Origin: Stigmatella ashevillena
Lineage (GTDB): Bacteria; Myxococcota; Myxococcia; Myxococcales; Myxococcaceae
DNA length: 64,000 bases
Assembly: GCF_028368975.1 (NCBI RefSeq)
Contig: NZ_JAQNDM010000002.1
Coordinates: forward strand, 9,294,425-9,358,424
Reading direction: 5' to 3'
This document shows, in pieces, positions 8,373 through 63,176 of the stretch (within the stretch, counting starts at the first letter, position 1; every line of letters begins with the position of its first letter). A model generated the notes under the pieces. The model was given only the letters and a program-made list of their open reading frames with translations, did not search any database and had not been told where the DNA came from. The position numbers and the translations under genes are program-made.

Positions 8373-8389
8373 AGCCTGCCTGACAGCGG

Positions 8390-8600: not shown

Positions 8601-8618
8601 TCCTCGGTGGGGACAGAC

Positions 8619-8760
8619 AAACTCAGCTGGGGTTAGGCCATCGAGCGAGCTGTGGGGCCGGGCGAGGAGGCTCGCCGCCGCCAGGGACTCGCGCTGGTGG
8701 GCTTCAGCAGCCCGGAGCATGGGAGGGCCACGACGCGCGAGCGGCACAGAGGCCCTCAAT
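8619..8760 (-). mobile_element. Decayed IS3-type transposase (OrfB) C-terminal fragment
   Basis: On the minus strand 8619-8660 encodes RPHSSLDGLTPAEF, which matches the near-invariant C-terminal signature of IS3-family integrase-type transposases (RPHSSLGYxTPxEF). Only this tail and some upstream residues (AAEAHQRESLAAASLLA) are left, with no DDE core. Together with the IS630 fragment it fills the gap between the helicase module and the HNH-like gene. That gap holds no intact gene. Confidence 0.6.
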
Positions 8761-8918
8761 TTAGCCTATGCTCATGATCAGCTCACTGTCTCATGTACCG
8801 GCTGCGGTACAGGACGGGTTTGCGCTGGTGAGTGGGCGGATGCGGACATAAGCTGAAACTCGAAGCTCAACTTGATGTGAAACAATTGCCGGGTATTGCG
8901 TCTCGATCGGAGGCGATC

Positions 8919-9503
8919 ATGGATGTTCCGCAACTTCTCTCGGCGTCACCGTTACGGGTCTTTGAGTGGGCAACAGGTAAAACGGACGCAGAGGTCGTGC
9001 GGATCGTCCTGAACGCCTCGCTCTTCATCCATCCGAGCGTGGTGCGTCGGACGCCCCTCATGCTTCCCGACTGTGTGCGTGAATCGAATGCGCATCATTC
9101 GAGCAAGAAGAGGGGCGACGTGTCCGTCTGGAAGGGGCGGCAGGTCAAGGTTTGCGACAACACGACCGCGAGGCTCGCCTTCGGCCGCTACATCGGCCGT
9201 TCGATGAATGGGAAGAATCGCGAGGTGGCGGTGGGCTGGGAGGTGGCGCACATTTGGGCCTCCGTCCACGACCCTGACTACTTCACCGCCGGATGGAATA
9301 TGTACCTAATTCCGGGTTTTCTCCGAGCCCTCACGGAAGAGCAGGTCCAGATCCCCCTATTTGCGAAATGCCTTCAGTTCGTCGCCTGGAACCTGTTCTT
9401 TAAGGATCCGGTGGCTGTGTCTGCGACACAGCCGATGCGGCCGTCGGATGATGTTCCCGAGTGGCTAATCACCTTTGAACCGAGGTTCGCGAGCGCGATG
9501 TAA
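8919..9503 (+). CDS. HNH-like nuclease candidate
   Basis: This 194-residue soluble protein of unknown family starts at an ATG with CGGAGG five bases upstream. The C-terminal half has EVAHIWASVHDPDYFTAGWN and then MYLIPGFLRALTEEQ. The His in HIW and the Asn in GWN are 16 residues apart, the spacing of the His and Asn in many HNH nucleases, and a Leu/Pro-rich helix follows. A third His is not obvious at the usual place, so activity is uncertain. The N-terminal half holds a Lys/Arg-rich patch (SSKKRGDVSVWKGRQVKV). It lies beside IS remnants and downstream of the helicase module. The nuclease call is inference from one motif. Confidence 0.5.
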   Translation: MDVPQLLSASPLRVFEWATGKTDAEVVRIVLNASLFIHPSVVRRTPLMLPDCVRESNAHHSSKKRGDVSVWKGRQVKVCDNTTARLAFGRYIGRSMNGKNREVAVGWEVAHIWASVHDPDYFTAGWNMYLIPGFLRALTEEQVQIPLFAKCLQFVAWNLFFKDPVAVSATQPMRPSDDVPEWLITFEPRFASAM

Positions 9504-9578
9504 GGGAAAAGCTGAGGCATCTCCCTCATCGAGCCGCGCCCGCGAGCGCTCCCCAACCCGTTCTGATGCGGGCGCGGC

Positions 9579-9941
9579 TCACCGGACCTGAGGCGGCTGC
9601 CGCAACGTCTGAGCATGACGGTAGGCGACGAACTGGAAGACGTTCTGGTTGGCGATCAGCTCGGTGGTGGGATTCTGGGCCGGGCACTCGCGGCGGGCCG
9701 CCATGAGCTGCCGCGTCATGCCCAGCAACTCCCGGGAATTGCCCGCCCGTTGGACGAAGCCCCAGAGCCTGTTGAGCCCGGAGCGGCTGAGCAAGTGGGT
9801 GGCGGGGCCGAGACACCGGTTGGCGAACCCCGAGAACGCGCTTAGGAATTTGCCCGCGCCCCGCAGATGTCCCAGTTGCCCCAGCCCCCGGCTCAGGGTG
9901 GTGCCCAGGGTGCCTGTCACCCGGGACAGCCCGGCCCACAA
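9579..9941 (-). CDS. Hypothetical protein
   Basis: This 120-residue reading frame has strong G/C third-position bias and an open N-terminus. The TTG start given here follows AGAAGG by a few bases; a GTG at 10012 is an in-frame alternative that adds about 24 residues. The sequence is Leu/Gly/Arg-rich with amphipathic stretches (LGTTLSRGLGQLGHLRGAGK, RECPAQNPTTELIANQNV) and three Cys. No family is recognised. It is divergent from the lectin-like gene. The codon pattern is the main reason to accept it; an overlapping frame on the same strand is less protein-like. Confidence 0.4.
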   Translation of the reverse strand: MWAGLSRVTGTLGTTLSRGLGQLGHLRGAGKFLSAFSGFANRCLGPATHLLSRSGLNRLWGFVQRAGNSRELLGMTRQLMAARRECPAQNPTTELIANQNVFQFVAYRHAQTLRQPPQVR

Positions 9942-48667: not shown

Positions 48668-48733
48668 TCCTTTGTGAGAGCGTCGGAACGGCCGGGCTCT
48701 AACTCTTTATTTGATTCGCATGCTGGAGGAAAA

Positions 48734-49303
48734 ATGAAGATCGACGGAAACATGATGGGCCCCCGGATGTCCACCAACCTGACGGTGAACAAGCAGACTC
48801 CGAACAACGAGTTTGGTCACCGGGTGCAGGCGGGTCTGAACGCCGCCGCGGGTGCCGTGTCCAGCGGCGTGGGAATGGCCACCAGCATGATCCCGGGCGG
48901 GGGCATCGTGTCCGCCGCGGTCTCCTCGGTGAACACCTTTGCCTCGGGCGCGACGGGCTCGGCGAGCACCCCGTATACGGGCGGCGTCACCGGCGGTGTG
49001 ACGGGCGGCGTGACCGGTGGCGTCACCGGCGGCGTTCCCTCGGTGAACACCACCGTGGGCACCGGCGGCGGCGTGGGCATCCCGGGCACGGGGACCCCGG
49101 GCGGCCCGAACTACCTGGGCGGTTCGACCGGCAGCGTGGGCAGCGAGTTCAACGGTGAGCTGTCCAGCATGTTCACCCAGCAGAAGGAACTGCTGAAGCT
49201 CCAGACCCAGATGCAGAACGAGCAGCAGCGCTACCAGGCCATCTCCAACGTTCTGAAGTCGCGCCACGAGTCGGCCAAGAACTCGATCGGCAACATCCGC
49301 TAG
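48734..49303 (+). CDS. Putative exported substrate with GGVT repeats and rod/filament-like C-terminal helix
   Basis: This 189-residue protein has no classical signal peptide. The middle is a Gly/Thr/Val-rich low-complexity region with four GGVT repeats. The C-terminal 50 residues are a long helix (GELSSMFTQQKELLKLQTQM, QRYQAISNVLKSRHESAKNS, ending IGNIR). That helix resembles the conserved ends of type III needle, rod or filament subunits. GGAGGAAAA precedes the ATG. Leading the locus under a possible sigma-28 promoter suggests an exported protein. The structural assignment is inference. Confidence 0.55.
   Translation: MKIDGNMMGPRMSTNLTVNKQTPNNEFGHRVQAGLNAAAGAVSSGVGMATSMIPGGGIVSAAVSSVNTFASGATGSASTPYTGGVTGGVTGGVTGGVTGGVPSVNTTVGTGGGVGIPGTGTPGGPNYLGGSTGSVGSEFNGELSSMFTQQKELLKLQTQMQNEQQRYQAISNVLKSRHESAKNSIGNIR
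48980..49036 (+). repeat. Tandem GGVT-coding repeat
   Basis: Four 12-base units with varying third positions encode GGVT-GGVT-GGVT-GGVT followed by GGV. Codons differ between units (GTC, GTG, ACC, ACG), so selection on the protein is likely. Confidence 0.85.
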
Positions 49304-49851: not shown

Positions 49852-50247
49852 ATGTCTGTCGGTGGAGTCGGACGAGGGGGCGGTAAGGGCCGGGCCGGTG
49901 GGGCGAAGGGTGCCTCTGGCAAGGCGCCGGCGGGCGGAGCCAGCTTTGGGGGCAAGGTCGACAAGACCGAGTCGCTCGTGGGGCCGTCGGGTCTGGTAGG
50001 CTCTTCCAATGTGCAGGGAGCCCAGGCTGCGGATCCCATCGCCTCCCAGGCAATGGCCATCGCCAAGCAGCTCAAGAATGGGGGCTTCAAGAACAAGGAT
50101 GAGGCGACACGGCAGCTCGTCGCCGAGGTTCTCAAGGAGAAGCTCCACATGAAGTCCTCCACGCTATCGACCAAGATCGCAGACGCGCTCCAGGAGGATC
50201 CTCGGCTGAACCAGGTTCTTGAGCGGCTGTGGTCAAAGGCCGAGTGA
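49852..50247 (+). CDS. FlgM-like candidate anti-sigma protein next to the FliA-type sigma factor
   Basis: This 131-residue protein has a Gly/Ala/Lys-rich disordered N-terminal half. The C-terminal helices (QAMAIAKQLKNGGFKNKDEA, TRQLVAEVLKEKLHMKSSTL, then DALQEDPRLNQVLERLWSK) recall the FlgM pattern I-K-x2-I-x2-G-x-Y/F-x3-D-x4-A-x2-LL. It lies directly upstream of the sigma gene with almost no gap. Disorder plus short helices suit an exported anti-sigma factor. It could also be an unrelated secreted protein; homology is inferred by eye. Confidence 0.45.
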   Translation: MSVGGVGRGGGKGRAGGAKGASGKAPAGGASFGGKVDKTESLVGPSGLVGSSNVQGAQAADPIASQAMAIAKQLKNGGFKNKDEATRQLVAEVLKEKLHMKSSTLSTKIADALQEDPRLNQVLERLWSKAE

Positions 50248-50254
50248 GCGGCGC

Positions 50255-51088
50255 TTGGGGTTCGGCGACGACAAGAAGGCGATCCTCGAAAAGTACGGCC
50301 CTTATGTGAGGTCGCTGGCGGCCACCGTCCGCAAGCAGTTCAACGCCCAGCTGGAGCTCGACGAGCTGGTGTCTTACGGCCAGATCGGACTCCTCGAGGC
50401 CGCAGACCGGTTTGATCCCAAGGTAGGGGCCAATTTCCTTACCTTTGCCCACTATCGCATCAAAGGTGCCATCTTTGATGGGTTGAGGAAAATGGGCATC
50501 TTGCGCGGCGGAGATGCCCGGTCCGCGTTCGTGGGAGAGCGCGCGGCGGCGTATCTGGGAAATCTTTCGGATCGCGAGCAGGGTGGAGGCAACCGCGGGG
50601 GGTCATTCGACGATGATGTCAGTGACATCTCCAGCGCTGTCGCAGGGCTGGCCATGGTCTTTGCCACCAGCCTCGATGGAGCGGACAGCGCCGGGTATTC
50701 CGACGAGTCCCTGCCGGCGGATCAGCGGCTGGAGATGGAGCAGTTGAAGCGGCGGGTGAGGGCGGCGATCGAAAAGCTCCCGGACAAGGAGCGCCAGCTG
50801 TTGCAGGGGTATTACTTCCAGGGGCGGACCCTGGAAGAGGCGGGCTCGGAGATCGGGCAATCGAAGAGCTGGGCCTCGCGGCTGCACGCACGGGCCATTG
50901 AACGGCTCAAAGAATTTTTAGATGAGGAGGAAGCCCCCGCTTCTTCCGACGAAACAAGGAGGCAGTCACATGGCGGGTCCAATGGCGGGCGTCTCGGCCG
51001 CGCAGATCGCTCAGCAGAAGCTGCAGGATCAGGGCGCGCAGCAGGTGAACAAGCAGGGAGCCTCGAAGTTCGACGGGGTTCTCGCTAA
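50255..51088 (+). CDS. FliA/WhiG-type (sigma-28-like) RNA polymerase sigma factor
   Basis: This protein of about 277 residues has region 2 reading ILEKYGPYVRSLAATVRKQF, LELDELVSYGQIGLLEAADR, FDPKVGANFLTFAHYRIKGA and IFDGLRKMGILRG, the FliA family pattern. Region 4 is AIEKLPDKERQLLQGYYFQG, RTLEEAGSEIGQSKSWASRL and HARAIERLKEFL. The part between is low in similarity and Gly/Ser/Asp-rich, so region 3 is degenerate. The start is uncertain: TTG at 50255, or TTG at 50219. The last 40 codons overlap the next gene by 119 bases in another frame, where they are Gly/Arg/Ser-rich. It probably directs transcription of this locus. Confidence 0.82.
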   Translation: MGFGDDKKAILEKYGPYVRSLAATVRKQFNAQLELDELVSYGQIGLLEAADRFDPKVGANFLTFAHYRIKGAIFDGLRKMGILRGGDARSAFVGERAAAYLGNLSDREQGGGNRGGSFDDDVSDISSAVAGLAMVFATSLDGADSAGYSDESLPADQRLEMEQLKRRVRAAIEKLPDKERQLLQGYYFQGRTLEEAGSEIGQSKSWASRLHARAIERLKEFLDEEEAPASSDETRRQSHGGSNGGRLGRADRSAEAAGSGRAAGEQAGSLEVRRGSR

Positions 51089-51530
51089 CAAGAGCCAGGC
51101 GGCGGGCGGGGCCGAGCAGGTCCAGGGCGCGCAGGCGGCTCAGAAGGCTCAAGCGGCCCAGGCTGCCCAGCGCGTCGACCAGGTGCGTCAGGTGGAGACC
51201 GTCAACAAGACGGAGAAGGCGGCCCTGAACAAGGTCAACGCTTCGGGCAGCGAGCAGCTCACCTCGCGTGCCGCCGAGCCTGTCACCGCCAAGGCGGAGA
51301 CCTCGAAGGCCGGCAACATGATGTCCAGCGTGGTCAGCTCGCTGGAGAAGGGCCAGCTCAACCTCGAGAAGCTCATTCAGCAGGGCTCCTCGGGCAAGCA
51401 GTTCTCCAACGGAGAGCTGCTGTCGCTCCAGGCCTCCATGTACAAGTACACCCAGGAGCTGGACCTGACGAGCAAGGTGGTTGAGAAGGCCACCAGCGGC
51501 CTCAAGGACGTCGTCAAGACCCAGGTGTAG
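50970..51530 (+). CDS. sctI: SctI-like (YscI/PrgJ) inner-rod component
   Basis: This 186-residue protein has an Ala/Gln/Lys-rich N-terminal half with repeats (QAAQKAQAAQAAQRVDQV). The C-terminal region reads MMSSVVSSLEKGQLNLEKLI, FSNGELLSLQASMYKYTQEL and DLTSKVVEKATSGLKDVVKTQ. This matches the SctI pattern of a Leu-rich helix followed by ELxSKxxxKAxSGLxxxxKTQ. The ATG follows AAGGAGG, a very strong site. It is followed by a terminator, so it ends the first transcription unit of the locus. Inner-rod proteins form the export-gate adaptor inside the basal body. Confidence 0.75.
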   Translation: MAGPMAGVSAAQIAQQKLQDQGAQQVNKQGASKFDGVLANKSQAAGGAEQVQGAQAAQKAQAAQAAQRVDQVRQVETVNKTEKAALNKVNASGSEQLTSRAAEPVTAKAETSKAGNMMSSVVSSLEKGQLNLEKLIQQGSSGKQFSNGELLSLQASMYKYTQELDLTSKVVEKATSGLKDVVKTQV

Positions 51531-51658: not shown

Positions 51659-52468
51659 ATGACTCACCGATCGCACGCGCGCGTCATTCCCCTTCTGGCC
51701 CTGATCTTCATCACGGGCTGTTCCATTGATCTTCAGCATGGCCTGACGGAGCAGGATGCCAACGAGATCTACGTCCTGCTCAGCAAGAATGGAATCAACG
51801 CCGTCAAGCTGAAGGAGGGCGAAGGCCAGGACGTCCAGTTCGCCATCCAAGTGCCCAAGGCGGATGCCGCCCAGGCGGCGGAACTGCTGCGGGCCAACTC
51901 GTTGCCCCGCCCGATGGAGAAAGGCTTCAACCACTTCGCCAAGGGCAGCATGGTGCCCACCGCCGCCGAAGAGCGCGCGATGATGCTCAAGGCGATCGCG
52001 GGCGAGGTCTCCAACGCGCTCAACAAGATCGATGGCGTGCTGGAGTCCAACGTCATCGTCAACATCCCCGAGAACAATGATCTCACCCAACCGGAGAACA
52101 AGCCGATGCCCTCCGCCTCGGTGATGATCCGCTACCGCCCCTCGATGGAGGGCAAGGCGCCCGTCGAGGAGCCCCAGGTCAAGCAGTTCGTTGCCTCCGC
52201 GGTTCAGGAACTCAAGCCCGAGGCGGTCACCGTGCTGCTGACGCCGGCCATCGTGTCCGCGGCGGAGACCAGTCCCGAGAGTCGGCTCCAGGATGTATTC
52301 GGCATGCGGATGACGGCGGCCAGCGCCAGCCAGTTCCGGGTCCTGGTCGGGGTTGTCTCCCTCATCGTGCTGGCCATGATCGGGTTGTCGGCCTGGGTCT
52401 TCATGAGGGGAGGCTCTTCGAGTGGCGCATCGGTGAGGACCGCCCGTCCGCGTCCTCCCCAGGCTTGA
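51659..52468 (+). CDS. sctJ: SctJ (YscJ/EscJ) inner-membrane ring lipoprotein
   Basis: This 269-residue lipoprotein has a signal peptide with lipobox FITGC. The ring-building motif fold follows: DLQHGLTEQDANEIYVLLSK, NGINAVKLKEGEGQDVQFAI, AQAAELLRANSLPRPMEKGF, VSNALNKIDGVLESNVIVNI. A C-terminal membrane helix (FRVLVGVVSLIVLAMIGLSA) and a short basic tail complete it. It has the length of injectisome SctJ (about 250-270), not of flagellar FliF (about 550). It would form the periplasmic-face inner-membrane ring. It starts the apparatus operon, and a GCCGCTAA-type element lies about 20 bases before its ATG. Confidence 0.92.
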   Translation: MTHRSHARVIPLLALIFITGCSIDLQHGLTEQDANEIYVLLSKNGINAVKLKEGEGQDVQFAIQVPKADAAQAAELLRANSLPRPMEKGFNHFAKGSMVPTAAEERAMMLKAIAGEVSNALNKIDGVLESNVIVNIPENNDLTQPENKPMPSASVMIRYRPSMEGKAPVEEPQVKQFVASAVQELKPEAVTVLLTPAIVSAAETSPESRLQDVFGMRMTAASASQFRVLVGVVSLIVLAMIGLSAWVFMRGGSSSGASVRTARPRPPQA

Positions 52469-52521: not shown

Positions 52522-54213
52522 TTGGATCAATTCTTCACCTCGCTCAACAAGCGCCAGACCATGCTGCTGCTGACCGCCATCACCTTCGGCGGTCAGGAGG
52601 GTGTGTCCTCGCTCGAGCACCTTTCCCAGGAGCAGGCGGAACTGCTCGGGCATCGCGCGCAGGGAATCATGCAGATTCCCCGCGAGAAGCGGATCCCCTT
52701 GTTGGTCCAGGAGCTCAAGAAGCTGGTGAAGGACCGGCGGGGCCAACTGTGGAGCGCCGATCCGGAACGGCTGGCCTTGCTGCTGAGGCGGGAGCGAGGG
52801 GCCCTGGTGGAGGTGGTGCTGCGAGCGCTGCCTGCGGGGCTCGCGGACGCGATGCGCTCCCATGTTCCGCAGCGGCCGGTGAAGTTGGCGCGCGAGGTCC
52901 GGCCGCAGATTCTGGACATCGTGCGGTGGAAGCTCGAGGAGGGGCTGACGCGCAGCGCGGGCCCTCAGGCGAGCCTCAAGTTCACCGATGTGTTGCTGTT
53001 GCAGCCTCGTGAACTGCTCACCGTGTGCGATCGGCTGGGCGCGCGGGTGCTGGGCCCGGCGCTGGCGGGGCTGCCCGAAACACTCCGGGAGGGGCTCGTC
53101 GCCGTGTTGCCACCGGATCAAAAACAGCTGGCCATCAAGTCCATCACCGCCAACGCCCCACGCAAGCTGTCCGAGGAAGAAGCGCAGGAGCAGCTTGCCT
53201 CGCATGATGGGTTGAAGAACCTCTCAAGTGCCATCCGCAGCGCGGGCGTCCAGCGGCTGGCCCGTGCGTGCGTGTCTCAGTCGGCGGAGTTCGCCGCGCG
53301 CATGCTGGAGCGTCATCGGGGGGATTTTGGCAGCTTGCTGGCGAAGTGGGTCCGCGATGAGCGCTCCAAGCCGAGCGCTCGCACCGCAGATGGTGGCCGC
53401 GCGGACATCCTGGCGGACATGGAGCGGTTGGCGGTCCGGGGTCTCATCGAGCGTCCAATGCGGCTCACCCCGCAGCGCCCGGTGCTGAATCCGCCCCCAG
53501 GCCGTCCGGCTTCGCCCCCAGCGGGCCGTGAGCCTGCCCGGGCGCCCGCGGGCCGCCCGGCTGCTGCGGCGCCGCCCCCCGTGAGAAGGGACCCCATGGC
53601 CGAGCGCGAGGCGCGGCGCGCGGGTGCCGTGTCCTCCAGTGCCGCGGATGCTTCGGTGCGCAGGGGCGACCCCATGGCCGAGCGGGCCGCCCGGCGGGCG
53701 GGAGCCCTCTCGGCCCGCGAGCCTTCCCGGGTGTCTCCGAGTGCCCAGGATGCGGGGGGACCCCGCCGCGAGTCCTTGGCCTCCATGCCCGCTGCATCGC
53801 GAGATGCGGAGCGAGGCGGGGGCCGGGGCAGTCCTGCGGGGCCCGTGGATGCCTCGCGCGCCAGTTCGCGGGTTCCCTCGCCCAGGCCAGGGGCCCGGCG
53901 GGAAGGAGGGAAGCCAGAAGTGGCGCCCGCGCGCATCCCTCCGCGCATCGCGGAGCGGTCCGGCGGCGCTTCGGATCCCGAAGGGTCGCGTGTCATCAGC
54001 TCACCCGGAGTCCGCAGCGTCAGCAGGACCGGACTCCGGGCGGCCCTGCCTGAGGAGCCGGAGCGTCCTCCCCGGGTTCTTTCTGGCAAACCCTCGGCGT
54101 CTTCGCGGCCGGTTGATTCCTCGCAGGGCGAGGGGAAGAGCGTGCAGCGCCGTCCCCCGTCTTCCCCGCCTCCTGGGAATTCCGGGCGTGGACCTCGTGG
54201 CGGATCGCGCTAG
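52522..54213 (+). CDS. FliG-like switch protein with a long disordered tail
   Basis: This 563-residue cytosolic protein has N-, middle and C-terminal FliG-type domains in order. First comes LNKRQTMLLLTAITFGGQEG with LEHLSQEQAELLGHRAQGIM; next DPERLALLLRRERGALVEVV with LRALPAGLADAMRSHVP; last KFTDVLLLQPRELLTVCDRL, ALAGLPETLREGLVAVLPPD and APRKLSEEEAQEQLASHDGL. These match the flagellar FliG pattern by eye. From about residue 320 the tail is Pro/Ala/Arg/Ser-rich and repeats RRDPMAEREARRAGAVSS and RRGDPMAERAARRAGALS. It lies between SctJ and SctL, where fliG stands in flagellar operons. TTG start after AGGTG. Injectisomes normally have SctK here. Confidence 0.65.
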   Translation: MDQFFTSLNKRQTMLLLTAITFGGQEGVSSLEHLSQEQAELLGHRAQGIMQIPREKRIPLLVQELKKLVKDRRGQLWSADPERLALLLRRERGALVEVVLRALPAGLADAMRSHVPQRPVKLAREVRPQILDIVRWKLEEGLTRSAGPQASLKFTDVLLLQPRELLTVCDRLGARVLGPALAGLPETLREGLVAVLPPDQKQLAIKSITANAPRKLSEEEAQEQLASHDGLKNLSSAIRSAGVQRLARACVSQSAEFAARMLERHRGDFGSLLAKWVRDERSKPSARTADGGRADILADMERLAVRGLIERPMRLTPQRPVLNPPPGRPASPPAGREPARAPAGRPAAAAPPPVRRDPMAEREARRAGAVSSSAADASVRRGDPMAERAARRAGALSAREPSRVSPSAQDAGGPRRESLASMPAASRDAERGGGRGSPAGPVDASRASSRVPSPRPGARREGGKPEVAPARIPPRIAERSGGASDPEGSRVISSPGVRSVSRTGLRAALPEEPERPPRVLSGKPSASSRPVDSSQGEGKSVQRRPPSSPPPGNSGRGPRGGSR

Positions 54214-54906: not shown

Positions 54907-56217
54907 ATGGCGATTGACCTATCGCGTTACTACGCGCTGCTGAAGGACGCATCGCTGGTCCGCGTGCGAGGGCGCGTCACCGAGCTCACCGGTCTGGTCA
55001 TCAAGGCCAGCGTGCCCAACGTGCGTGTGGGCGAGGTCGTCTACATCAACAGCCGCATCCGCGGGAAGGTGAAGGCGGAGGTGGTGGGCTTCCAAGGCGA
55101 TGAGGTGATGCTCATGCCGCTGGGCGAGCTGTACGGCATCGGTCCGGACAGCGAGGTGATTCCCACCGGCAAGCCGCTCACCATCAAGTGTGGGGAAGGG
55201 TTGCTGGGCCGCGTGCTCGGCGGCACGGGCGAGCCCCTCGACGGGAAGCCCCTGCCGGATGACCTCATTGACTGGTCGGTGGATCGGGACTGCCCGGACC
55301 CCTTCACGCGCATGCGCATCGAGCACCCGCTGCCCCTGGGGGTGCGCTGCATCGACGGGCTGCTGACCGTGGGCGAGGGGCAGCGCGTGGGGCTCTTCGC
55401 AGGCTCCGGTGTCGGTAAGTCCACACTCATGGGGCAGATCGCCCGGAACACCAAGGCGGAGCTGAACGTCATCGCGCTGATCGGCGAGCGTGGCCGCGAG
55501 GTGCGTGAGTTCATCGAGGACGCACTCGGCGAGGAGGGGCTCAAGCGCTCCGTGCTGGTGTGCGCTACCTCGGACCAGCCCAGCCTGGTGCGTTTGAAGG
55601 CCGCCTACGTGGCCACCGCCATCGCGGAGTACTTCCGGGAGCGGGGCGGCAACGTGATGTTCATGCTGGACACGGTGACGCGTCTGGCGCGTGCCCAGCG
55701 TGAAATCGGCCTGGCCGTCGGCGAGCCCCCGGCCCGTCAGGGCTATCCGCCCAGCGTCTTCTCCATGCTGCCGCGCATCCTTGAGCGCACCGGCAACTCG
55801 GCCAAGGGCAAGTGCACCGCCATCTACACGTGCTTGGTGGCCGGTGGTGACATGGAAGAGCCCATCGCCGACGAGGTCCGCGGTATTCTCGACGGCCACT
55901 TCATCCTCAACCGCGCCCTGGGCGAGCGCAACCAGTGGCCCGCCATGGACGTGCTGGCCAGCCTCTCCCGTGTGATGAGCGGCATCGTCGCCAAGGAGCA
56001 CAAGAAGGCGGCCGGCAAGCTGCGCGAGACGCTCGCGACCTACGAGAAACAGCGCGACCTGATCCTCCTGGGGGCCTACCAGTACGGCACGGACCCCCGG
56101 ACGGACTACGCCATCGACAAATACGACGCCATCATCGACTACCTCAAGCAGGACACCCACTCGAACTCGACCTACGAGGAGACTGTCAACGGGCTCCTGG
56201 CCCTCTTCGAGGACTGA
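54907..56217 (+). CDS. sctN: SctN (FliI/YscN) export ATPase
   Basis: This 436-residue hexameric ATPase unfolds and releases substrates from chaperones. It has Walker A GSGVGKST (about residues 166-173), Walker B region VMFMLDTVTRLARAQREIGL, the catalytic GERGREVREF, and the family signature PPSVFSMLPRILERTGNSAK. AGGDMEEPIADEVRGILDGH is the conserved C-terminal ATPase part, and the last 60 residues form the helical SctO-binding end. Length fits SctN. It is in the operon between SctL and SctO. Confidence 0.96.
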   Translation: MAIDLSRYYALLKDASLVRVRGRVTELTGLVIKASVPNVRVGEVVYINSRIRGKVKAEVVGFQGDEVMLMPLGELYGIGPDSEVIPTGKPLTIKCGEGLLGRVLGGTGEPLDGKPLPDDLIDWSVDRDCPDPFTRMRIEHPLPLGVRCIDGLLTVGEGQRVGLFAGSGVGKSTLMGQIARNTKAELNVIALIGERGREVREFIEDALGEEGLKRSVLVCATSDQPSLVRLKAAYVATAIAEYFRERGGNVMFMLDTVTRLARAQREIGLAVGEPPARQGYPPSVFSMLPRILERTGNSAKGKCTAIYTCLVAGGDMEEPIADEVRGILDGHFILNRALGERNQWPAMDVLASLSRVMSGIVAKEHKKAAGKLRETLATYEKQRDLILLGAYQYGTDPRTDYAIDKYDAIIDYLKQDTHSNSTYEETVNGLLALFED

Positions 56218-56253: not shown

Positions 56254-56742
56254 ATGCCCCCGTACCGGTTAGAGACCCTCCTGGAGATGCGCGCCCGCGC
56301 CAAGGAGGAGGCGGAGCAGGCCTTCTCCGCGGCCATCAAGGCGCTGGAGAAGGAGAAGGCGGAGCTCAAGCGTCTGGAGGACGAACTCACGCGGCGCAAG
56401 GCCGAGCGCAAGGCGAAGGTCATGGCCTACCTCAACGAGGTGATGGCCAAGGGTGCCGGCATCAACGGCATGAACATGATGGGCCGCTTCGAGCAGCGCC
56501 TGAAGGATGAGGAGGCGCAGGTGGCGCTCGACATCGAGCGCCAGCGCGAGGTGGTGAAGGTGGCCGAGCGGACCGTCGAGCAGAAGCGCCAGCAAATGGC
56601 GGAGGCCGCCAAGGAGCTCAAGGCCATCGAGAAGCACAAGGAGACCTGGCAGAAGCAGATCAAACACGAGCGGCAGCAGCGCGAGGAGCTGACCCAGGAA
56701 GAGATTGGCAGTGCCTTGTTCCTCGCCCGCCAGCGCAAGTAA
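56254..56742 (+). CDS. sctO: SctO (FliJ/YscO) coiled-coil stalk
   Basis: This 162-residue protein is almost entirely an antiparallel coiled coil, as FliJ/SctO are: YRLETLLEMRARAKEEAEQA, LKRLEDELTRRKAERKAKVM, RQREVVKVAERTVEQKRQQM, AKELKAIEKHKETWQKQIKH. The family is poorly conserved in sequence, so the call rests on length, fold and the position after sctN. It would act as a stalk inside the ATPase hexamer and couple it to the export gate. A middle Met/Gly segment (GINGMNMMGR) breaks the helix. Confidence 0.8.
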   Translation: MPPYRLETLLEMRARAKEEAEQAFSAAIKALEKEKAELKRLEDELTRRKAERKAKVMAYLNEVMAKGAGINGMNMMGRFEQRLKDEEAQVALDIERQREVVKVAERTVEQKRQQMAEAAKELKAIEKHKETWQKQIKHERQQREELTQEEIGSALFLARQRK

Positions 56743-56772: not shown

Positions 56773-57783
56773 ATGAGCCGAGTCGAAGACGATCGCGACG
56801 CAGAGCGGATTGCCCAGCGCCTCATCCAGGAGCGGCAGCTCGCCGAGGCCAAGGGCAAGCAGCGCAAGGACGGGGAGACGGCCTTCTCGAAGCTGGTCCA
56901 GCAGTCCCAGACGGAGAAGGGACATACCCAGCAGAAGCAGGAGACCAAGCAGACCTTCGCCCAGGCCACGCTCGCCCGGCTGATGAAGGAGGCGGGGACG
57001 AAGGAGGCCGGGGCAGAGACGCGCCAGCAGGAGGGGACCCACGCCAAGCAGTCCGGGCTGCGTCAGGACACCACCCGCGCCCAGGGGCGCCAGGAGGCGA
57101 AGTCCCTCGACGAGCGTGTGCTCCTGGGCCACTCCGACGAGGCCCGGCAGACAGCCGAGGGCCGGCAGACGGAGTCGTCCCAAAGTGGGGCGGCCAGTGC
57201 TGGCCGCAAGCACGACGAGGGGGTCTCCGAGACGCGCACCGAGGCCCGCCACACGGAAGGCAAGGCGGAGAGCGACTCGGAGGCGGACGAGAAAAGCTCG
57301 TTGTCCCGGAGCGAGGGGCGCGCGGGCCAGAAGGGCTCGCTCAAGGCGGACGCGGACTCGGGGGGCGGCCAGGGCGGTGGGGGCAAGGACAAGAAGGAAG
57401 GCGGGGGCGATGCGGCGGCGGCGGCGGGCTTCCGTTTCAACCCCGCGCTGATGGCCCCGGTTCCGGTGGCCAAGCCCAAGCCCAACACGGGCTCGGAGCG
57501 GATGCGTGCCGTCGCCAACGAGATTGCTCAGAAGATCGTCGAGCGGGCGCGCGTGGGAACCAATGGCGCCGGGCAGGCGGAGTTCCAGATTGATTTGCGC
57601 AGCAATGTGCTCAACGGACTGTCCATCAAGATCTCCGCCAAGAACGGGAAGATCCAGGCCGTCTTCAGCGGCAGTGACCGTGACGTGCTCAAGATGATCG
57701 AAGAGCAGAAAGAGGGGCTCAAGAGCGCGCTGACGGGCCGTGGCCTGAAGCTCGAGGATCTGCGCTTCGAGGTTCGCGCATGA
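56773..57783 (+). CDS. sctP: SctP (FliK/YscP)-like length-control protein
   Basis: This 336-residue hydrophilic protein has a long Gln/Lys/Glu/Gly-rich disordered region (about residues 1-215), as in FliK/SctP rulers. The C-terminal folded domain follows: RMRAVANEIAQKIVERARVG, QAEFQIDLRSNVLNGLSIKI, KNGKIQAVFSGSDRDVLKMI, LKSALTGRGLKLEDLRFEVR. That last part resembles the substrate-specificity-switch domain of FliK. Its stop overlaps the sctQ start by four bases (ATGA). Placement between SctO and SctQ supports the call; the sequence family is weakly conserved. Confidence 0.8.
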   Translation: MSRVEDDRDAERIAQRLIQERQLAEAKGKQRKDGETAFSKLVQQSQTEKGHTQQKQETKQTFAQATLARLMKEAGTKEAGAETRQQEGTHAKQSGLRQDTTRAQGRQEAKSLDERVLLGHSDEARQTAEGRQTESSQSGAASAGRKHDEGVSETRTEARHTEGKAESDSEADEKSSLSRSEGRAGQKGSLKADADSGGGQGGGGKDKKEGGGDAAAAAGFRFNPALMAPVPVAKPKPNTGSERMRAVANEIAQKIVERARVGTNGAGQAEFQIDLRSNVLNGLSIKISAKNGKIQAVFSGSDRDVLKMIEEQKEGLKSALTGRGLKLEDLRFEVRA

Positions 57784-59105
57784 GCCTCAGCCGGGATGAT
57801 GGGCCCGGAACCTATGATCGGACGATGCTGGTGGACTTGCGCCAGATTCGTCCGACCCGGCCCTGGAAGCCGTTCTATTTTCAGAACCTGGAGCGGGTGA
57901 GCCGCGATCAGGTGGGGCTCTCGCTGCAAGTGCAGCGCTTGTTGCCGCCCGCGAGCGCGGCCGAGCCTCTGTACGCCCGGCTCAAGGCGCTCTTCGACGC
58001 GGAATCCCGCGTGAATCTGGTGTCCGTGCAGATCCGCCCCTTCCAGGAGCTGCAGCGCTACCTGGGGGATCCCTCCTTCCTGGCGGTGCTCGCCCCGGGC
58101 GCGCTCAAGGAGCGGGTGGTGCTGGAGGTGGAACTGCCCCTGGCCCACAACCTGGTGGACATGCTGCTGGGTGGGGTGGGGGAGACCGTGGGCTTGCGGC
58201 CCTTGACCGACATCGAGGAGGGTGTGATGAGCTTCGTCGTCCTCGAGGCCCTCAAGGCCCTCTCGCCCGCGTTGGACCCTGGGTTGCCCAAGCTCCGTTT
58301 GGAGACGGTGGCCCGTGGCGCGGAGGAAGTGGCGGCCCGGTTGGGAGACGATGATCGGGTGGTGGTGATCCACCTGAACGCCTCGCTGGGCCCCCATACC
58401 GGACTGGTGCGTCTGGTCATCCCCACCGGGGTGGTGGGCGCGGCCGAGCTGGCGCAGGCCGCTGGGGAGCGGCGGTCCCGGGTGAACACGGATCTCCAGA
58501 TGAACCGGTGGATGCTGTCCACGGTGCGCACCTGGCTGCGGGCGGAGATCGGTCAGGCGGAGATCGCCGGCCAGGACCTGGCCTACATCCGCGTCAAGGA
58601 CGTGGTGTTGCTGGATGCGCTGACGGCCCGGCCGGACCGGGGCGAGGACGGCAACGCGGTGCTCCGCGTGGGCGTGGGCAGCTCCCGGGTGGAGGCGGAG
58701 GTCTTCCTCGAGGATGGCCAGTACAAGGCGCGCGTCACGTCCATCGTCATTGGCGAGCCGGCCTTTCAGCGTGCCATTCCCCCAACGCCCGAGGGAGAAG
58801 AGGCTTTTACCCAGCCGGAGACCGACGGGTCTTCGGAGTCGGAAGGACAGTCCTTGGACACGATGAACAAGTCGGAGGGCAGCGACCTGCTGGCCGACAT
58901 CCCGCTGCAGATCGCCGTGGAGCTTGCCCGGGTGCCCGTCACCGCGGACGAAGTGGTGTCGCTGAGGGTCGGCCACGTCCTCGAGTTGCACCGCTCCCCC
59001 GGCGAGCCGGTGGAGCTGTCGGTCAATGGCAAGGTGGTGGCCCGGGGCGAGCTGGTGGAGGTGGAAGGCCAGCTCGGCGTGCGGGTGCTCTCCCTGGCCG
59101 GGTAG
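57780..59105 (+). CDS. sctQ: SctQ (FliM/FliN-like) sorting-platform protein with SpoA domains
   Basis: This 441-residue cytosolic protein has a long N-terminal region (RPWKPFYFQNLERVSRDQVG). A first SpoA-like part follows (DVVLLDALTARPDRGEDGNA, AEVFLEDGQYKARVTSIVIG), then an acidic Ser-rich linker. The C-terminal SpoA/FliN domain is LADIPLQIAVELARVPVTAD, VVSLRVGHVLELHRSPGEPV and ELSVNGKVVARGELVEVEGQ. It would build the cytosolic C-ring or pods and receive substrates. The C-terminal domain is the clearest. ATGA overlap with the previous gene indicates coupling. Confidence 0.9.
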   Translation: MSLSRDDGPGTYDRTMLVDLRQIRPTRPWKPFYFQNLERVSRDQVGLSLQVQRLLPPASAAEPLYARLKALFDAESRVNLVSVQIRPFQELQRYLGDPSFLAVLAPGALKERVVLEVELPLAHNLVDMLLGGVGETVGLRPLTDIEEGVMSFVVLEALKALSPALDPGLPKLRLETVARGAEEVAARLGDDDRVVVIHLNASLGPHTGLVRLVIPTGVVGAAELAQAAGERRSRVNTDLQMNRWMLSTVRTWLRAEIGQAEIAGQDLAYIRVKDVVLLDALTARPDRGEDGNAVLRVGVGSSRVEAEVFLEDGQYKARVTSIVIGEPAFQRAIPPTPEGEEAFTQPETDGSSESEGQSLDTMNKSEGSDLLADIPLQIAVELARVPVTADEVVSLRVGHVLELHRSPGEPVELSVNGKVVARGELVEVEGQLGVRVLSLAG

Positions 59106-59155: not shown

Positions 59156-59848
59156 ATGGCGGTCCCGCCTCCGAATGGACTAGCCTTCGTCCCATTCATG
59201 GCGGTTTTCCCTGTTTCGAACGTGCGCCCCCTCGTGGCCTGTGGCTGGTTGTTGATCGCGCCGTCGCTCGCCGCGGCGCAGGCGGTCTCCTCTCCGCCCG
59301 CGGTCCCGGGGGCGTCTGTCCCTGCCGCGTCCGCGGAATCCTCGCAGGCACCGGCTGTCCTCTCGCCCACGCCCGTGGCCCCGGCCGCATCCCCTCAGGC
59401 CGCTTCTCCTCAGGCCGCTGCCGGAGAGGAGCTTCCGGATCCGTTTGCCACCGATGTGAGCCCGGAGGAGCCCGAGAGCATGGGGTGGACCCTGGTGCGC
59501 ACTTTGCTGCTGCTGGCCGCGGTGGTGGCCTCCATCTACCTGACGCTCAACGTGGGGCTGCGCCGGTTGATGGGGCTCCAGGGGGTGCCGGTGGGGCGCC
59601 CCTCCGTCGTCGCGGTCCTGGAGCGCTTGCCGCTGGACCAGCGCCGGACGCTCTTCGTGTTGAAGGCGGCGGACGAGTACCTGCTGGTGGGGGGCGGGGA
59701 GGGGGGCCTTCAGCTCCTGTCCAAGCTCGACACCGAGGCCGTGGAGCGCATCCGCGCCGAGCGCCCTCAGACGGCTCCCATCGCCTTGAGTCCCTTCCTT
59801 CAAAAGCTTCTCTCCCGCCGCACCGGCTCCACGCCGCCGCGTTCCTGA
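59156..59848 (+). CDS. FliO-like export-gate assembly protein
   Basis: This 230-residue membrane protein has a signal-like N-terminus (PLVACGWLLIAPSLAAAQA) and an Ala/Pro/Ser-rich linker. One membrane helix (LVRTLLLLAAVVASIYLTLN) is followed by a cytosolic domain: RPSVVAVLERLPLDQRRTLF, VLKAADEYLLVGGGEGGLQL and LLSKLDTEAVERI. The TM-then-VxVLExxxL...LLVG pattern is that of FliO, which helps FliP assemble in flagella. It sits before the FliP-type gene exactly as in flagellar operons. AAGGG precedes the ATG at 59156; an ATG at 59198 is possible. Confidence 0.7.
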   Translation: MAVPPPNGLAFVPFMAVFPVSNVRPLVACGWLLIAPSLAAAQAVSSPPAVPGASVPAASAESSQAPAVLSPTPVAPAASPQAASPQAAAGEELPDPFATDVSPEEPESMGWTLVRTLLLLAAVVASIYLTLNVGLRRLMGLQGVPVGRPSVVAVLERLPLDQRRTLFVLKAADEYLLVGGGEGGLQLLSKLDTEAVERIRAERPQTAPIALSPFLQKLLSRRTGSTPPRS

Positions 59849-59858
59849 AGACTGCCCC

Positions 59859-60692
59859 GTGAGACCTTCGTCCGTCCGACCGCTCCTGTCGTCTCGAATC
59901 ATCCCCTGGCTCTTCGCCACCACGGTCGCGCTTCAGCCCGCGGTGGCGCTGGCGCAGCGCCGCCGGGGGGGAGGGGACGATTCCATTCCCGACAGCGTCG
60001 TCCAGGCCGCCACCAGCAACGAGTCCTTTGCCTCGCGGCCGCTCATCCTCATTCTGGCGCTGGCGGCCCTGTCGCTCGTGCCCTTCATGTTGATGATGGT
60101 GACGAGCTTCGTGAAGATCTCGGTGGTGCTCTCCATCGTCCGCTCGGCGCTGGGCACCCAGCAGATTCCGCCCACGCAGGTCATCACCGGCCTGGCCGTC
60201 ATTCTCACCGTCTACATCATGGCCCCCGTGGGGCAGGAGATGTACAAGGCGGCGAAGGTGGACATCTGGGCCAAGGGCCCCAGCTTGTTGTCCTCGGAGA
60301 CAGTGGGCACGCTGCTGGAAGCCGCCGACCGTTCGAAGGAACCCCTGCGCGACTTCCTGGTGAAGAAGGTGAAGAACAAGGACCGTGCCTTGTTCTTCCA
60401 CCTCGCCAAGAAGATGCGCAAGGCGGAGGACCGCAAGGACATCGGGGACCGGGACTTCATGATCATCATCCCGGCCTTCGTGGTGTCCGAGCTGAAGGAG
60501 GCCTTCCAGATCGGCTTCCTGCTCTTCGTGCCCTTCATCGTCATCGACATGGTGGTGGCCAACATCCTGCTTGCCCTCGGCATGCACATGTTGTCGCCGA
60601 CCACCATCTCCATGCCGTTCAAGCTCTTGCTCTTCGTGCTCGTGGACGGCTGGTATCTCATCGCCAAGGGCCTGGTCGTCGGCTACCTGTAG
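59859..60692 (+). CDS. sctR: SctR (FliP/YscR) export-gate protein
   Basis: This 277-residue inner-membrane protein belongs to the FliP family. It has a signal-like N-terminus, then SRPLILILALAALSLVPFML, MMVTSFVKISVVLSIVRSAL and GTQQIPPTQVITGLAVILTV. The C-terminal helices are FMIIIPAFVVSELKEAFQIG, FLLFVPFIVIDMVVANILLA and LGMHMLSPTTISMPFKLLLF. SctR subunits form the core of the export gate. GTG start. The N-terminal 50 residues with a cleavable-looking signal are more FliP-like than typical injectisome SctR. Confidence 0.95.
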   Translation: MRPSSVRPLLSSRIIPWLFATTVALQPAVALAQRRRGGGDDSIPDSVVQAATSNESFASRPLILILALAALSLVPFMLMMVTSFVKISVVLSIVRSALGTQQIPPTQVITGLAVILTVYIMAPVGQEMYKAAKVDIWAKGPSLLSSETVGTLLEAADRSKEPLRDFLVKKVKNKDRALFFHLAKKMRKAEDRKDIGDRDFMIIIPAFVVSELKEAFQIGFLLFVPFIVIDMVVANILLALGMHMLSPTTISMPFKLLLFVLVDGWYLIAKGLVVGYL

Positions 60693-60702
60693 GAGACGCT
60701 CC

Positions 60703-60969
60703 ATGCACCAACTGTCCGTCATTACCCAGCAGGCGTTGTTCCTGGTGCTCATCGTCTCCGCGCCGCCGGTGCTCATCAGCTTGGTGGTGGGCTTCATCAT
60801 CGCCCTGTTCCAGGCCACCACGCAGATTCAGGAGCAGACGCTGACGTTTGCTCCCAAGGTCGTCATCGTCTTCATCGTGCTGGCCATGGCGGGGCCGTGG
60901 ATTGGCCACCAGCTCTTGCGCTTTACCTTCCACGTCTTCGACCGGTTCCCGGCCCTCATCAACGGATGA
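60703..60969 (+). CDS. sctS: SctS (FliQ/YscS) export-gate protein
   Basis: This 88-residue protein has two membrane helices: QALFLVLIVSAPPVLISLVV, GFIIALFQATTQIQEQTLTF and APKVVIVFIVLAMAGPWIGH. The signature FQATTQIQEQTLTFAPK is that of FliQ/SctS. Its length is typical. AGGAGACG precedes the ATG, which comes ten bases after sctR. Its stop overlaps the sctT start (ATGA). Confidence 0.96.
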   Translation: MHQLSVITQQALFLVLIVSAPPVLISLVVGFIIALFQATTQIQEQTLTFAPKVVIVFIVLAMAGPWIGHQLLRFTFHVFDRFPALING

Positions 60970-61787
60970 ACAACGTCCAGGAAGCCTTCGCCCGGCTGAT
61001 CGATCAGTCGAACCTATCGCTGATGATCTTCACGATAGGGCTGCTGATGTGCCGGATCATGCCCGTGCTCATCTTCTCCCCGTTCCTCGGGGGCGAGGTG
61101 GTTCCCCCCGAGGTGCGCATGGGGGTGGGCGTTACCCTGTCGCTGGTGCTCTTCCCTTCGGTGGCGGACCGGATGGGGGCACTGCCCACCAGCGCGCTGC
61201 CCTACATCGCGCTGCTGCTCAAGGAGGTCTTCATCGGCGTCTCGCTGGCGTTCATCGTCAACATCATCTTCGATGCGGCGCGTGTGGCGGGCACCTTGGT
61301 CGACACCATGGCGGGCAGTAACAACGCCCAGCTCTACGTGCCCCAGTTGGGGCAGCAGGTCTCGCTCTTCTCCAGCCTCAAGGTGCAGATGTCCGTGGTG
61401 CTGTTCCTCACGCTGGATGGCCACCACATCGTCATCTCGGCCTTGGCGGACAGCTTCGCCATCGTCCCGCTCGACAGCTTTCCCAAGTTCAGCAAGGGGA
61501 CATGGGCCTTCTTCGATGTGATGAGCCGCGCCTTCGCCAACCTGCTGGCGATCAGCCTCTCGCTGGCCGCGCCGCAGATGCTGGCCGCCTTCCTCACAGA
61601 CCTGGCCATGGGCGCCGTCAACCGCGTTGCGCCCAACCTCCAGGTCTTCTTCATCGCCATGGCCATCAAGCCCATGGTGTCGGTGCTCATCGCGGCGTTG
61701 GCGCTGCACATGCTCATCGGACGGTTTCAGGCGGAGTTCGTCCACATGCTCGAGATTCTCAATCGCGCCGTGCACCTGCTGGCCTGA
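60966..61787 (+). CDS. sctT: SctT (FliR/YscT) export-gate protein
   Basis: This 273-residue inner-membrane protein of the FliR family has several helices: LMIFTIGLLMCRIMPVLIFS, EVVPPEVRMGVGVTLSLVLF, LLLKEVFIGVSLAFIVNIIF. The GxxxDxxxG region reads AARVAGTLVDTMAGSNNAQL. Further helices follow (VSVLIAALALHMLIGRFQAE). One copy joins five SctR and four SctS in known gates. It overlaps sctS by four bases and is followed by sctU after 12 bases. Confidence 0.95.
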   Translation: MNNVQEAFARLIDQSNLSLMIFTIGLLMCRIMPVLIFSPFLGGEVVPPEVRMGVGVTLSLVLFPSVADRMGALPTSALPYIALLLKEVFIGVSLAFIVNIIFDAARVAGTLVDTMAGSNNAQLYVPQLGQQVSLFSSLKVQMSVVLFLTLDGHHIVISALADSFAIVPLDSFPKFSKGTWAFFDVMSRAFANLLAISLSLAAPQMLAAFLTDLAMGAVNRVAPNLQVFFIAMAIKPMVSVLIAALALHMLIGRFQAEFVHMLEILNRAVHLLA

Positions 61788-61799
61788 CCCTGAGCCGTC

Positions 61800-62861
61800 A
61801 TGTCCGACGAGAAAACAGAGGAACCGAGTCAAAAGAAGCTCGATGACGCCCGGAAGAAGGGGCAGGTCTGGAAGAGCAAGGACCTGACAGGCGTCTTCGT
61901 CTTCCTCGTGGGACTGGGCGCCGTGAAGGGCATGTGGGACACGATCGTCGAGGAGCTGAAGACGCTCTTCCTCTTCACGTTCCAGTACATCGCGCAGCCA
62001 GAGGAGCTGTCGCGGGCCACCGCCAACGCGATGTCGATGGCGGTGCGCACGGTGCTGTTTCTCACGGCCCCCATCGTCGCCGGTGGGGCGGTCATCGCGG
62101 GGCTGGTGGAGTTCCTCCAGGTGGGGGCGCTCTTCACCATGGATCCGTTGATTCCGAAGCTCGAGAAGCTCAACCCCATCCAGGGCATCAAGAACATCTT
62201 CTCCAAGAAGACCGTGGTGGAGATGATCAAGAACCTGGTGAAAATCAGTGTCGCGGCCTACGTCGTTTTCGGCGTGGTGCGGGACATGATCGACATGCTG
62301 GTCCAGACGGTGCGCATGGACACCTCGGGCCTGCTGGCGGTGATGGGAGAGATGGTCTACCGCGTCTGCACCCGCGTGGCGCTCGTCTTCCTGCTGTTCT
62401 CCATTTTCGACATCTGGTGGCAGCGCAAGGCCTTCATGAAGGAAATGATGATGTCGAAGGACGACGTCAAGAAGGAGTACAAGGAGAGCGAAGGCGACCC
62501 GCACCACAAGGCGCACCGCAAGCAGATGCACCAGGAGATCATGGAGGGGGCGCAGATGGAGGCCGTCAAGGACGCCGACGTCATCGTCACCAACCCCGAC
62601 CACGTGGCGGTGGCCCTCCAGTACGATCGCAACAAGGACGCCGCGCCCCGGGTGCTGGCCAAAGGCATCGACTTCAAGGCCGAGCGCATCAAGGCGATTG
62701 CCCGCGAGTCGGACGTGCCCACGCTGCGCAACGTGCCGCTGGCGCACGCGCTCCTGCGGGTGGAAGTGGGCCAGGACATTCCCGAGGAGCTGTACGACGC
62801 GGTGGCCGAGGTCCTCAACTTTGTCTACGGGCTGAAGTCCGGGGCCGGGGCGCACCCGTGA
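61800..62861 (+). CDS. sctU: SctU (FlhB/YscU) autocleavage switch protein with NPDH motif
   Basis: This 353-residue protein has the FlhB start MSDEKTEEPSQKKLDDARKK, four membrane helices and a cytosolic domain. The self-cleaving site reads NPDH (residues 265-268) where nearly all family members have NPTH; cleavage normally occurs between Asn and Pro. After it come VAVALQYDRNKDAAPRVLAK, GIDFKAERIKAIARESDVPT and [20 protein letters not shown], the usual FlhB C-terminal part. It controls the switch in substrate class. A stand-alone copy of this C-terminal part follows in the next gene. Confidence 0.95.
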   Translation: MSDEKTEEPSQKKLDDARKKGQVWKSKDLTGVFVFLVGLGAVKGMWDTIVEELKTLFLFTFQYIAQPEELSRATANAMSMAVRTVLFLTAPIVAGGAVIAGLVEFLQVGALFTMDPLIPKLEKLNPIQGIKNIFSKKTVVEMIKNLVKISVAAYVVFGVVRDMIDMLVQTVRMDTSGLLAVMGEMVYRVCTRVALVFLLFSIFDIWWQRKAFMKEMMMSKDDVKKEYKESEGDPHHKAHRKQMHQEIMEGAQMEAVKDADVIVTNPDHVAVALQYDRNKDAAPRVLAKGIDFKAERIKAIARESDVPTLRNVPLAHALLRVEVGQDIPEELYDAVAEVLNFVYGLKSGAGAHP

Positions 62862-62894: not shown

Positions 62895-63176
62895 ATGAGT
62901 GACGAGGCGGAGATCGCGATCGCGCTGAAGTACAATCAGAACAATGACTCCGCGCCGCGCGTGGTGGCCAAGGGCATGCGCCTGAAGGCGGAGAAAATCC
63001 GGGAGATCGCCAAGCAATACAACATTCCCATCATGAAGAACCTCCCTCTGGCCAGCGCGCTGTACCGCGTCGACGTGGGCCAGGAAGTCCCCGAGGAGCT
63101 GTATGACGCGGTGGCCGAGGTCCTCAATTTCGTCTACGCGCTGCAGCAGGAACAGCAGGCGAGCGGGAAGCGTTGA
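62895..63176 (+). CDS. Stand-alone FlhB/SctU C-terminal-domain protein
   Basis: This 93-residue cytosolic protein corresponds only to the part of SctU after the cleavage site. It reads [60 protein letters not shown] and [20 protein letters not shown], close to the end of SctU just upstream. The NPTH site is absent. Similar small proteins (FhlX/YlqH-type) occur with flagella and can substitute for the cleaved FlhB part. It probably arose by partial duplication of sctU. It may modulate substrate choice. Confidence 0.88.

Follow-up and report, generated by a model that had tools for sequence, protein, structure and literature searches.

A probable FliG derivative in the SctJ-SctL slot of a myxobacterial non-flagellar type III secretion system

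Myxobacterial (Myxo) systems are placed at the base of the branch of non-flagellar type III secretion systems (NF-T3SS) by PMC3459982, which in the portions available to us describes them as lacking FliEG, a secretin and a needle. The components named for the T3SS* of Myxococcus xanthus are SctD, J, I, Q, RSTUV, N and L (PMC10433427, in extracts), and this T3SS* is needed for prey lysis (PMC12075869, in extracts). In the accessible main texts of these two papers neither 'FliG' nor 'SctK' occurs; according to the accessible part of PMC12248157, where FliG is not mentioned, both M. xanthus T3SSs contain FliO, and the accessible parts of PMC9380563, PMC4295842, PMC5073101, PMC4443714, PMC4832279, PMC4045390 and PMC6627406 contain no FliG in a myxobacterial T3SS. 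The flagellar counterpart of the injectisome protein SctK is listed as 'FliG (?)' in the available part of PMC4045390. Here we describe a protein, called X below, encoded in a T3SS operon of Stigmatella ashevillena within a window of 64,000 nucleotides (contig NZ_JAQNDM010000002.1, positions 9,294,425 to 9,358,424). Its sequence makes homology to FliG near certain, and X is probably a FliG derivative without motor function, acting as a static adaptor on the cytoplasmic side of the NF-T3SS. In an incomplete literature search, PMC3459982 (FliG lacking) was the only source found to mention FliG in a myxobacterial T3SS; as far as that search reached, such a FliG relative appears to be unreported.

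X consists of ~315 folded residues followed by a tail of ~245 residues, with the parts laid out as follows (window positions).

52522..54213, + strand: X, FliG-derived protein, 563 residues, TTG start (Pfam FliG_C)
52522..52737, + strand: N-domain, residues 1-72, weakly FliG_N-like (hhalign E 0.0015; Pfam FliG_N in 6/26 members)
52738..52950, + strand: M-domain, FliG_M/ARM_M, residues 73-143 (hhalign 9.5e-12; VIA Z 8.1)
52972..53196, + strand: first FliG_C unit, R1, residues 151-225, with an F-x-F motif (Pfam FliG_C; hhalign 1.6e-9)
53203..53370, + strand: extra helical unit, R2, residues ~228-283, an apparent duplication of R1 (hhalign, R2 against R1)
53398..53436, + strand: last helix, residues 293-305, resembling the terminal helix of FliG_C (VIA; hhalign 0.0012)
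53464..54210, + strand: tail rich in Pro, Arg, Ala and Ser, residues 315-563 (AlphaFold confidence; composition)
53584..53628, + strand: tail motif copy 1, RRDPMAEREARRAGA, residues 355-369 (sequence; family motif)
53662..53706, + strand: tail motif copy 2, RGDPMAERAARRAGA, residues 381-395 (predicted short helix)

The N-terminus is probably right because the frame upstream of the shared start is open for just 1-4 codons in 15/15 orthologous loci, where the start reads L or V. Against Pfam, X alone matches FliG_C (2.2e-6, 28.3 bits, cut-off 23.3) and gives no FliG_M match. A Pfam scan at E <=1 of 26 family members, composed of nine rows of the order Myxococcales and 17 deep members without the tail, found FliG_C in 25, FliG_M in 19 and FliG_N in six (best 2.2e-4). 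When compared by hhalign with 12 canonical FliGs, a 16-row Myxococcales set reached 4.2e-7 (probability 92.7) and the 17 tail-less members reached 4.7e-12 (probability 97.6), and the signal is distributed over corresponding segments: M on M (9.5e-12), the C unit on FliG_C (1.6e-9) and the last helix on the FliG_C end (0.0012). In column-shuffle controls the observed scores were reached in 0/60 trials for each of six profile pairs. The first-pass annotation, made from the DNA letters and translations, had called the gene a FliG homologue in which all three FliG domains could be read. The homology is borne out; the M and C domains are clear, but the N-domain is weak, there is no ARM_C and an extra unit stands in the C part. 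That annotation had noted neither of these last two features, nor the FliM-like SctQ or the reduced slot protein of the second T3SS described below.

For residues 1-320, AlphaFold gives a model with a mean predicted local distance difference test score (pLDDT) of 78.8 and a predicted template-modelling score of 0.52, with the best values (pLDDT 84-94) over residues 151-280. A comparison of the predicted structure with FliG had been proposed as a check, and both fold searches rank FliG first, with weak scores. In Foldseek against the PDB, FliG takes ranks 1-12 for the 1-320 model (best E 2.2e-3) and again for the full-length model (best E 2.4e-2), and in VIA it fills rows 1-13. The FliG of H. 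pylori is superposed on residues 73-143 with Z 8.1 and a root-mean-square deviation (rmsd) of 2.8 over 71 residues, and the FliG entry 3ajc (FliG 235-325) on residues 151-311 with Z 6.5 and an rmsd of 3.1 over 90 residues. Residues 1-72 alone gave no FliG_N row in VIA; structural comparison does not identify the N-domain, because the matches there (row 14 and many later rows) are unrelated helical proteins. The homology of X and FliG rests on the sequence evidence, as fold scores alone would not prove it. Neither outcome that had been named as contrary to a FliG identity, a fold unlike FliG or a better match to SctK, appeared: FliG came first by fold, and no SctK profile matched among the families listed in the Pfam scans.

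The gene order points in the same direction. The + strand operon of the window runs SctI, SctJ, X, SctL, SctN, SctO, SctP, SctQ, FliO, SctR, SctS, SctT, SctU, and X occupies the place of FliG because this order parallels the fliF-G-H start of the E. coli K-12 series (fliF-G-H-I-J-K-L-M-N-O-P), as the first-pass annotation had said in placing the gene at the FliG position. SctJ lies directly 5' of X in 60/63 loci with enough sequence, taken from a set of 65 loci in which several genomes are represented twice and two loci have too little upstream sequence; the misses are L054, L064 and L061, the last with a gap of 429 bp where the limit was set at 400 bp. SctL lies directly 3' of X in 20/29 loci. 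The FliF cytosolic C-terminus binds FliG (PMC5073101, in extracts). The tail of SctJ after its membrane helix spans 13-28 residues in Myxococcales, 23 in the window (short and basic, as first noted), and 22-48 residues in the deep families, where the tails look helix-like and basic by eye. SctQ is a likely partner of X, as judged from its domains: it combines a FliM middle domain with a FliN-type C-terminus, and a GGxG loop like that of FliM is kept in 15/18 SctQ rows, the other three being L008 (read off-frame) and, both without the loop, L059 (a fragment) and L065. In FliM, the GGxG loop contacts the middle domain of FliG.

X departs from FliG in several respects. The ARM_C module between M and C has no counterpart in X, where the alignment shows a gap of ~50 residues; E. 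coli FliG positions 195-196 are gaps in 26/26 X members, and the best ARM_C score of any X segment is 8.8e-5, for segment C1, which matches FliG_C far better. R2 (~55 residues) is apparently a duplication of R1, given hhalign scores between the two of 2.5e-6 in the 17 tail-less members (reversed 0.32) and 1.5e-4 over 26 rows. An early alignment had read R2 as the FliG_C counterpart; the segment and R1-R2 tests speak rather for R1 in that place, with R2 a copy of it. The residues which we take to be the stator-facing torque charges of E. coli FliG are K264, R281, D288, D289 and R297. They are kept in 0/26, 0/26, 1/26, 1/26 and 10/26 X members, respectively, against all five in 12/12 canonical FliGs (D/E and R/K exchange allowed) and in five further FliGs, with R281 as K in one. 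This search for torque-helix charges had also been suggested at the outset, and the loss of four of the five across the 26 members fits the rotation-free role then considered. EHPQ is the FliG motif for FliM binding; its E is kept in 26/26 X members, its P in 16/26 (14/17 deep, 2/9 Myxococcales) and its Q in 0/26, and the X of the window reads ERGA there.

From this anatomy, a static adaptor role of X is likely. The N-domain would dock on the inner-membrane ring, through the SctJ tail and/or a forkhead-associated (FHA)/YscD-type protein, and the M and C parts would hold SctQ as FliG holds FliM. X would thereby position the SctQ-SctL-SctN sorting platform beneath the export gate, and the basic tail, in which the DPMAERAARRAGA motif is conserved, may tether X to a further partner, for instance where prey is contacted. 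X would then do the injectisome job of SctK from the same gene slot without being a recognisable SctK. The guess of a SctK-like adaptor, made when the gene was first read, is on the sequence evidence the best-supported function for X.

The tail itself might be the main functional part, which we regard as rather unlikely; X would then be a hub linking the T3SS with either an FHA protein or the Kil/Tad pilus, and its FliG portion would be no more than an anchor. The tail measures 141-476 residues in complete Myxococcales rows and is conserved in specific places: 42/48 Myxococcales loci, but 0/20000 shuffled tails, contain the motif D-[PIFV]-[MIL]-AER-x-AR-x-AG-[AV], and a GRGPRGGTR-like C-end occurs in 38/48 (six of the 48 tail loci are cut short and some are redundant). 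Kil recruits the M. xanthus T3SS* to prey contacts, according to the available part of PMC12075869. On the other side, the FliG part stands without a long tail in 17 deep-family members, and, among the members read, those with the long tail all belong to the order Myxococcales. The tail carries a net charge of +22 over residues 319-563. It had been described as a disordered stretch of ~240 residues, and the prediction agrees for most of it: pLDDT is below 50 almost throughout residues 315-563, with the main exception at ~382-393, where a helix at 384-392 lies inside motif copy 2. The 'repeated RRxDPMAERxARRAGA units' described with it hold in part; the window X has two copies, but most orthologues show one, and the element is thus a conserved motif, not an array. 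Its conservation suggests a binding motif.

The slot is shared with known SctK-type proteins: between SctJ and SctL, Mycetohabitans has HrpB4 and Mesorhizobium has a weakly YscK-like protein (E 0.015, below cut-off). X might on this ground be a SctK orthologue, its FliG resemblance a convergence of helical repeats, and the best of 18 SctK comparisons, HrpB4 against the X M-domain (E 0.0023, reversed 0.062, shuffled 0/60), is a lead to this effect, and only a lead. We consider such orthology improbable. The FliG M-domain match is better by ~8 orders of magnitude, and HrpB4 against canonical FliG_M gave 0.24, no match. X against Pfam at E <=10 yielded no YscK, OrgA_MxiK or HrpB4 match, YscK was not among the 25 families listed for the 26 X members, and nothing in the hhalign comparisons with SctK profiles was significant. 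No SctK chain stood among the Foldseek and VIA rows listed, which excludes nothing. Searches of the S. ashevillena genome with YscK, OrgA_MxiK and HrpB4 found none, and YscK was above cut-off in 0/195 genomes, with three sub-threshold matches; these three genome searches are weak negatives because no control genome passed the cut-off.

X could also be a working rotor, its T3SS turned by a MotAB-like stator encoded elsewhere. FliG homology, the FliG slot and the arginine at the R297 position in 9/9 Myxococcales rows would suit a rotor, and myxobacteria do have Agl-type stators. Yet K264, R281, D288 and D289 are lost in at least 25/26 X members and kept in the 17 FliGs checked, and X is without ARM_C. 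No stator gene was present among the neighbours scanned, in line with the first-pass remark that no motor genes lie near, though no genome-wide stator search was made. We find a rotor very improbable.

X homologues are present in 111/195 Myxococcota genomes by profile search, 92 of them of the order Myxococcales (E <1e-100) and 19 elsewhere in the phylum (9e-28 to 5e-11); the 17 deep members are 329-389 residues long, one of them clipped by a contig end. That X is a functionless, decaying flagellar relic is hardly credible, for although flagellar motifs are lost, no internal stop occurs among the matches listed in these 111 genomes, identity over 16 sequences is 56-81% (84% mean column identity) and gene order is conserved. 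Strong FliG_M matches (E <=1.1e-10, counted by hand) occur in 48 genomes, and X is not simply the flagellar FliG of those genomes, because 28 of the 48 also hold X. A tree of 164 columns, built from 26 X sequences and 17 FliGs from four phyla, splits X from FliG with 100% support, the branch between them measuring 1.06 substitutions per site; X does not fall inside the Myxococcota FliGs, subject to the usual long-branch caution. A tblastn search with a deep X member against plasmids gave none at 0.1; no search of other phyla was made.

Several observations weigh against reading X as a FliG-derived adaptor. In sequence, the N-domain scores only 0.0015 against FliG_N (0.037 for the runner-up among the FliG domains, reversed profile 0.094), and a PDB sequence search with X reached FliG at only 0.0099. 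Six-frame searches of the S. ashevillena genome with FliG_C or FliG_M returned no match at E 0.001, and the FliG likeness of X is therefore easily missed. The column-shuffle control is lenient, because the unproven pair of HrpB4 and the M-domain passes it too. In structure, the M-domain is modelled with low confidence (pLDDT 54-76 by blocks, and lower in a second model), neither model has a Foldseek match at E <=0.001, and template-modelling scores are about 0.2 or less. The VIA Z values (5.6-8.9) fall in a range that can be common among helical proteins, the other FliG rows superpose at rmsd values of 9-18 A owing to differences in domain position, and row 14, in which residues 1-72 match a terpene synthase, ties with FliG row 13. 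Among the functional residues, the arginine at R297 is retained in all nine Myxococcales rows, positions 281-289 adjoin alignment gaps, such that single torque-residue counts could shift, and EHPQ has shrunk to E alone in most Myxococcales rows. In gene order, an SctL adjoining X was not found in 9/29 loci, all of the deep families.

The other genes of the operon are as follows (window positions).

50922..51530, + strand: SctI-like inner rod (Pfam 8.2e-4, weak, under cut-off)
51659..52468, + strand: SctJ, inner-membrane ring lipoprotein, with a 23-residue basic tail past the membrane helix
54238..54903, + strand: SctL/FliH, stator of the ATPase (Pfam FliH 3.3e-16)
54907..56217, + strand: SctN ATPase (TIGR02546, 631.6 bits, above cut-off)
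56254..56742, + strand: SctO/FliJ-like (Pfam YscO-like 1.9e-48)
56773..57783, + strand: SctP/FliK-like (Pfam Flg_hook 1.7e-6, slightly below cut-off)
57780..59105, + strand: SctQ, FliM middle domain and FliN-type C-terminus, with a GGxG loop (Pfam FliM 1.2e-16, FliMN_C 9.2e-22; TIGR02551 above cut-off)
59216..59848, + strand: FliO homologue (Pfam FliO 2.3e-9)
59859..60692, + strand: SctR/FliP (Pfam 3.4e-72)
60703..60969, + strand: SctS/FliQ-like, named from likeness and position, start by eye (tblastn match in L065)
60966..61787, + strand: SctT/FliR-like, named from likeness and position, start by eye (tblastn matches in L050, L051 and L065)
61800..62861, + strand: SctU/FlhB (Pfam 1e-115)

With its SctI-J-L-N-O-P-Q-R-S-T-U operon, a non-flagellar type ATPase and SctQ, an order shared by related loci, the cluster is, judged by gene content, of the Myxo NF-T3SS/T3SS* type. 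Within the cluster lies a gene for a FliA/WhiG-type sigma factor (50219-51088, +), and several deep-family clusters likewise adjoin one. A free-standing FlhB/SctU C-terminal domain of 93 residues (62895-63176, +) follows immediately 3' of the full-length SctU, and 5' of SctI is a protein of unknown family (48674-49303, +), a relative of which is present in the short T3SS locus described below. Downstream of the window, in locus L134 of the same genome, a 526-residue protein near SctV (8089-9669, +) shows ~5 tandem, near-identical repeats of ~75 residues by eye. Beside the T3SS cluster, L134 also encodes a helical protein of 72 residues (4694-4909, +) in about four copies, the others seen by eye near 1454, 3797 and 4246. 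It matches the 43-residue PDB chain 7y6c_F, titled as a T3SS needle-protein co-chaperone (E 0.0067), and a Pfam scan gave no T3SS needle family; in a system that has been described as lacking a needle, it may be needle-related. A double-FHA protein (L134:13562-14617, -) matches the YscD cytoplasmic domain at 1e-26; by eye, it has a hydrophobic stretch at its C-terminus and lacks an obvious periplasmic domain. Lying ~13 kb beyond the window end, it is a candidate SctD-like protein.

The S. ashevillena genome carries a second, 'short' T3SS, whose slot protein, called S here, has a family in 86/195 genomes.

L103:11325-11873, - strand: S, slot protein of the short T3SS, 183 residues, between SctJ and SctQ (N-domain match)

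S matches the X N-domain at 2.1e-5 (reversed 0.51) and FliG_N at 8.3e-5 (reversed 0.33); against the M or C domains its best score is only 0.0034. The S alignment has 12 rows from 30 loci, the rest being filtered or duplicates, and one faulty row, L112, was dropped for the shuffle control. At E <=0.01, Pfam detects no FliM domain in the SctQ of the short T3SS; in this one comparison in one genome, the FliM-binding part appears lost in S alongside a faded FliM domain in its SctQ. As a tentative possibility, X and S may be surviving steps of a path from FliG to SctK, in which FliG would have kept its slot as the flagellum turned into a secretion machine, losing first the motor surface and ARM_C (X) and then the FliM-binding domains as the FliM domain of the partner faded (S), and ending as the small SctK adaptor of injectisomes. 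Were this true, the 'FliG (?)' entry for SctK would be settled. X is a concrete candidate for the flagellar counterpart of SctK.

The presence of a FliG derivative in Myxo systems suggests that their ancestor kept FliG after motility was lost, the C-ring being converted and not dropped. X may show how flagella became injection machines. It would be a natural protein in which the structural role of FliG is uncoupled from torque generation, and a new gene in a type of machine on which M. xanthus depends to lyse prey.

Compared with FliG, X shares FliG_M, FliG_C, the F-x-F motif and the E of EHPQ, together with a weak match to FliG_N, as well as the slot between a ring protein and FliH/SctL and a neighbour with a FliM domain; it differs in the missing ARM_C and four of five torque charges, in the extra, apparently duplicated C-terminal unit and, in Myxococcales, in the long tail, and FliG_C and FliG_M searches found no canonical FliG in the S. 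ashevillena genome (flagellin was not searched). With SctK (YscK, HrpB4, OrgA/MxiK), X shares the J-K-L gene slot and a probable ring-to-SctQ role, whereas it has 320 residues plus the tail against 207-240 in the SctK proteins compared, and no significant sequence match. S of the short Myxo T3SS resembles X in an N-domain that matches FliG_N; unlike X, it has only 183 residues, in which M and C domains are not detectable. Like the M. xanthus T3SS* (MXAN_2434-2464), the S. ashevillena cluster has SctI, J, L, N, Q, R-U, FliO and tetratricopeptide repeat (TPR) genes, and by eye an SctV-like gene directly downstream; the published descriptions of the former, in their accessible parts, name no FliG or SctK, whereas the S. 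ashevillena cluster has X.

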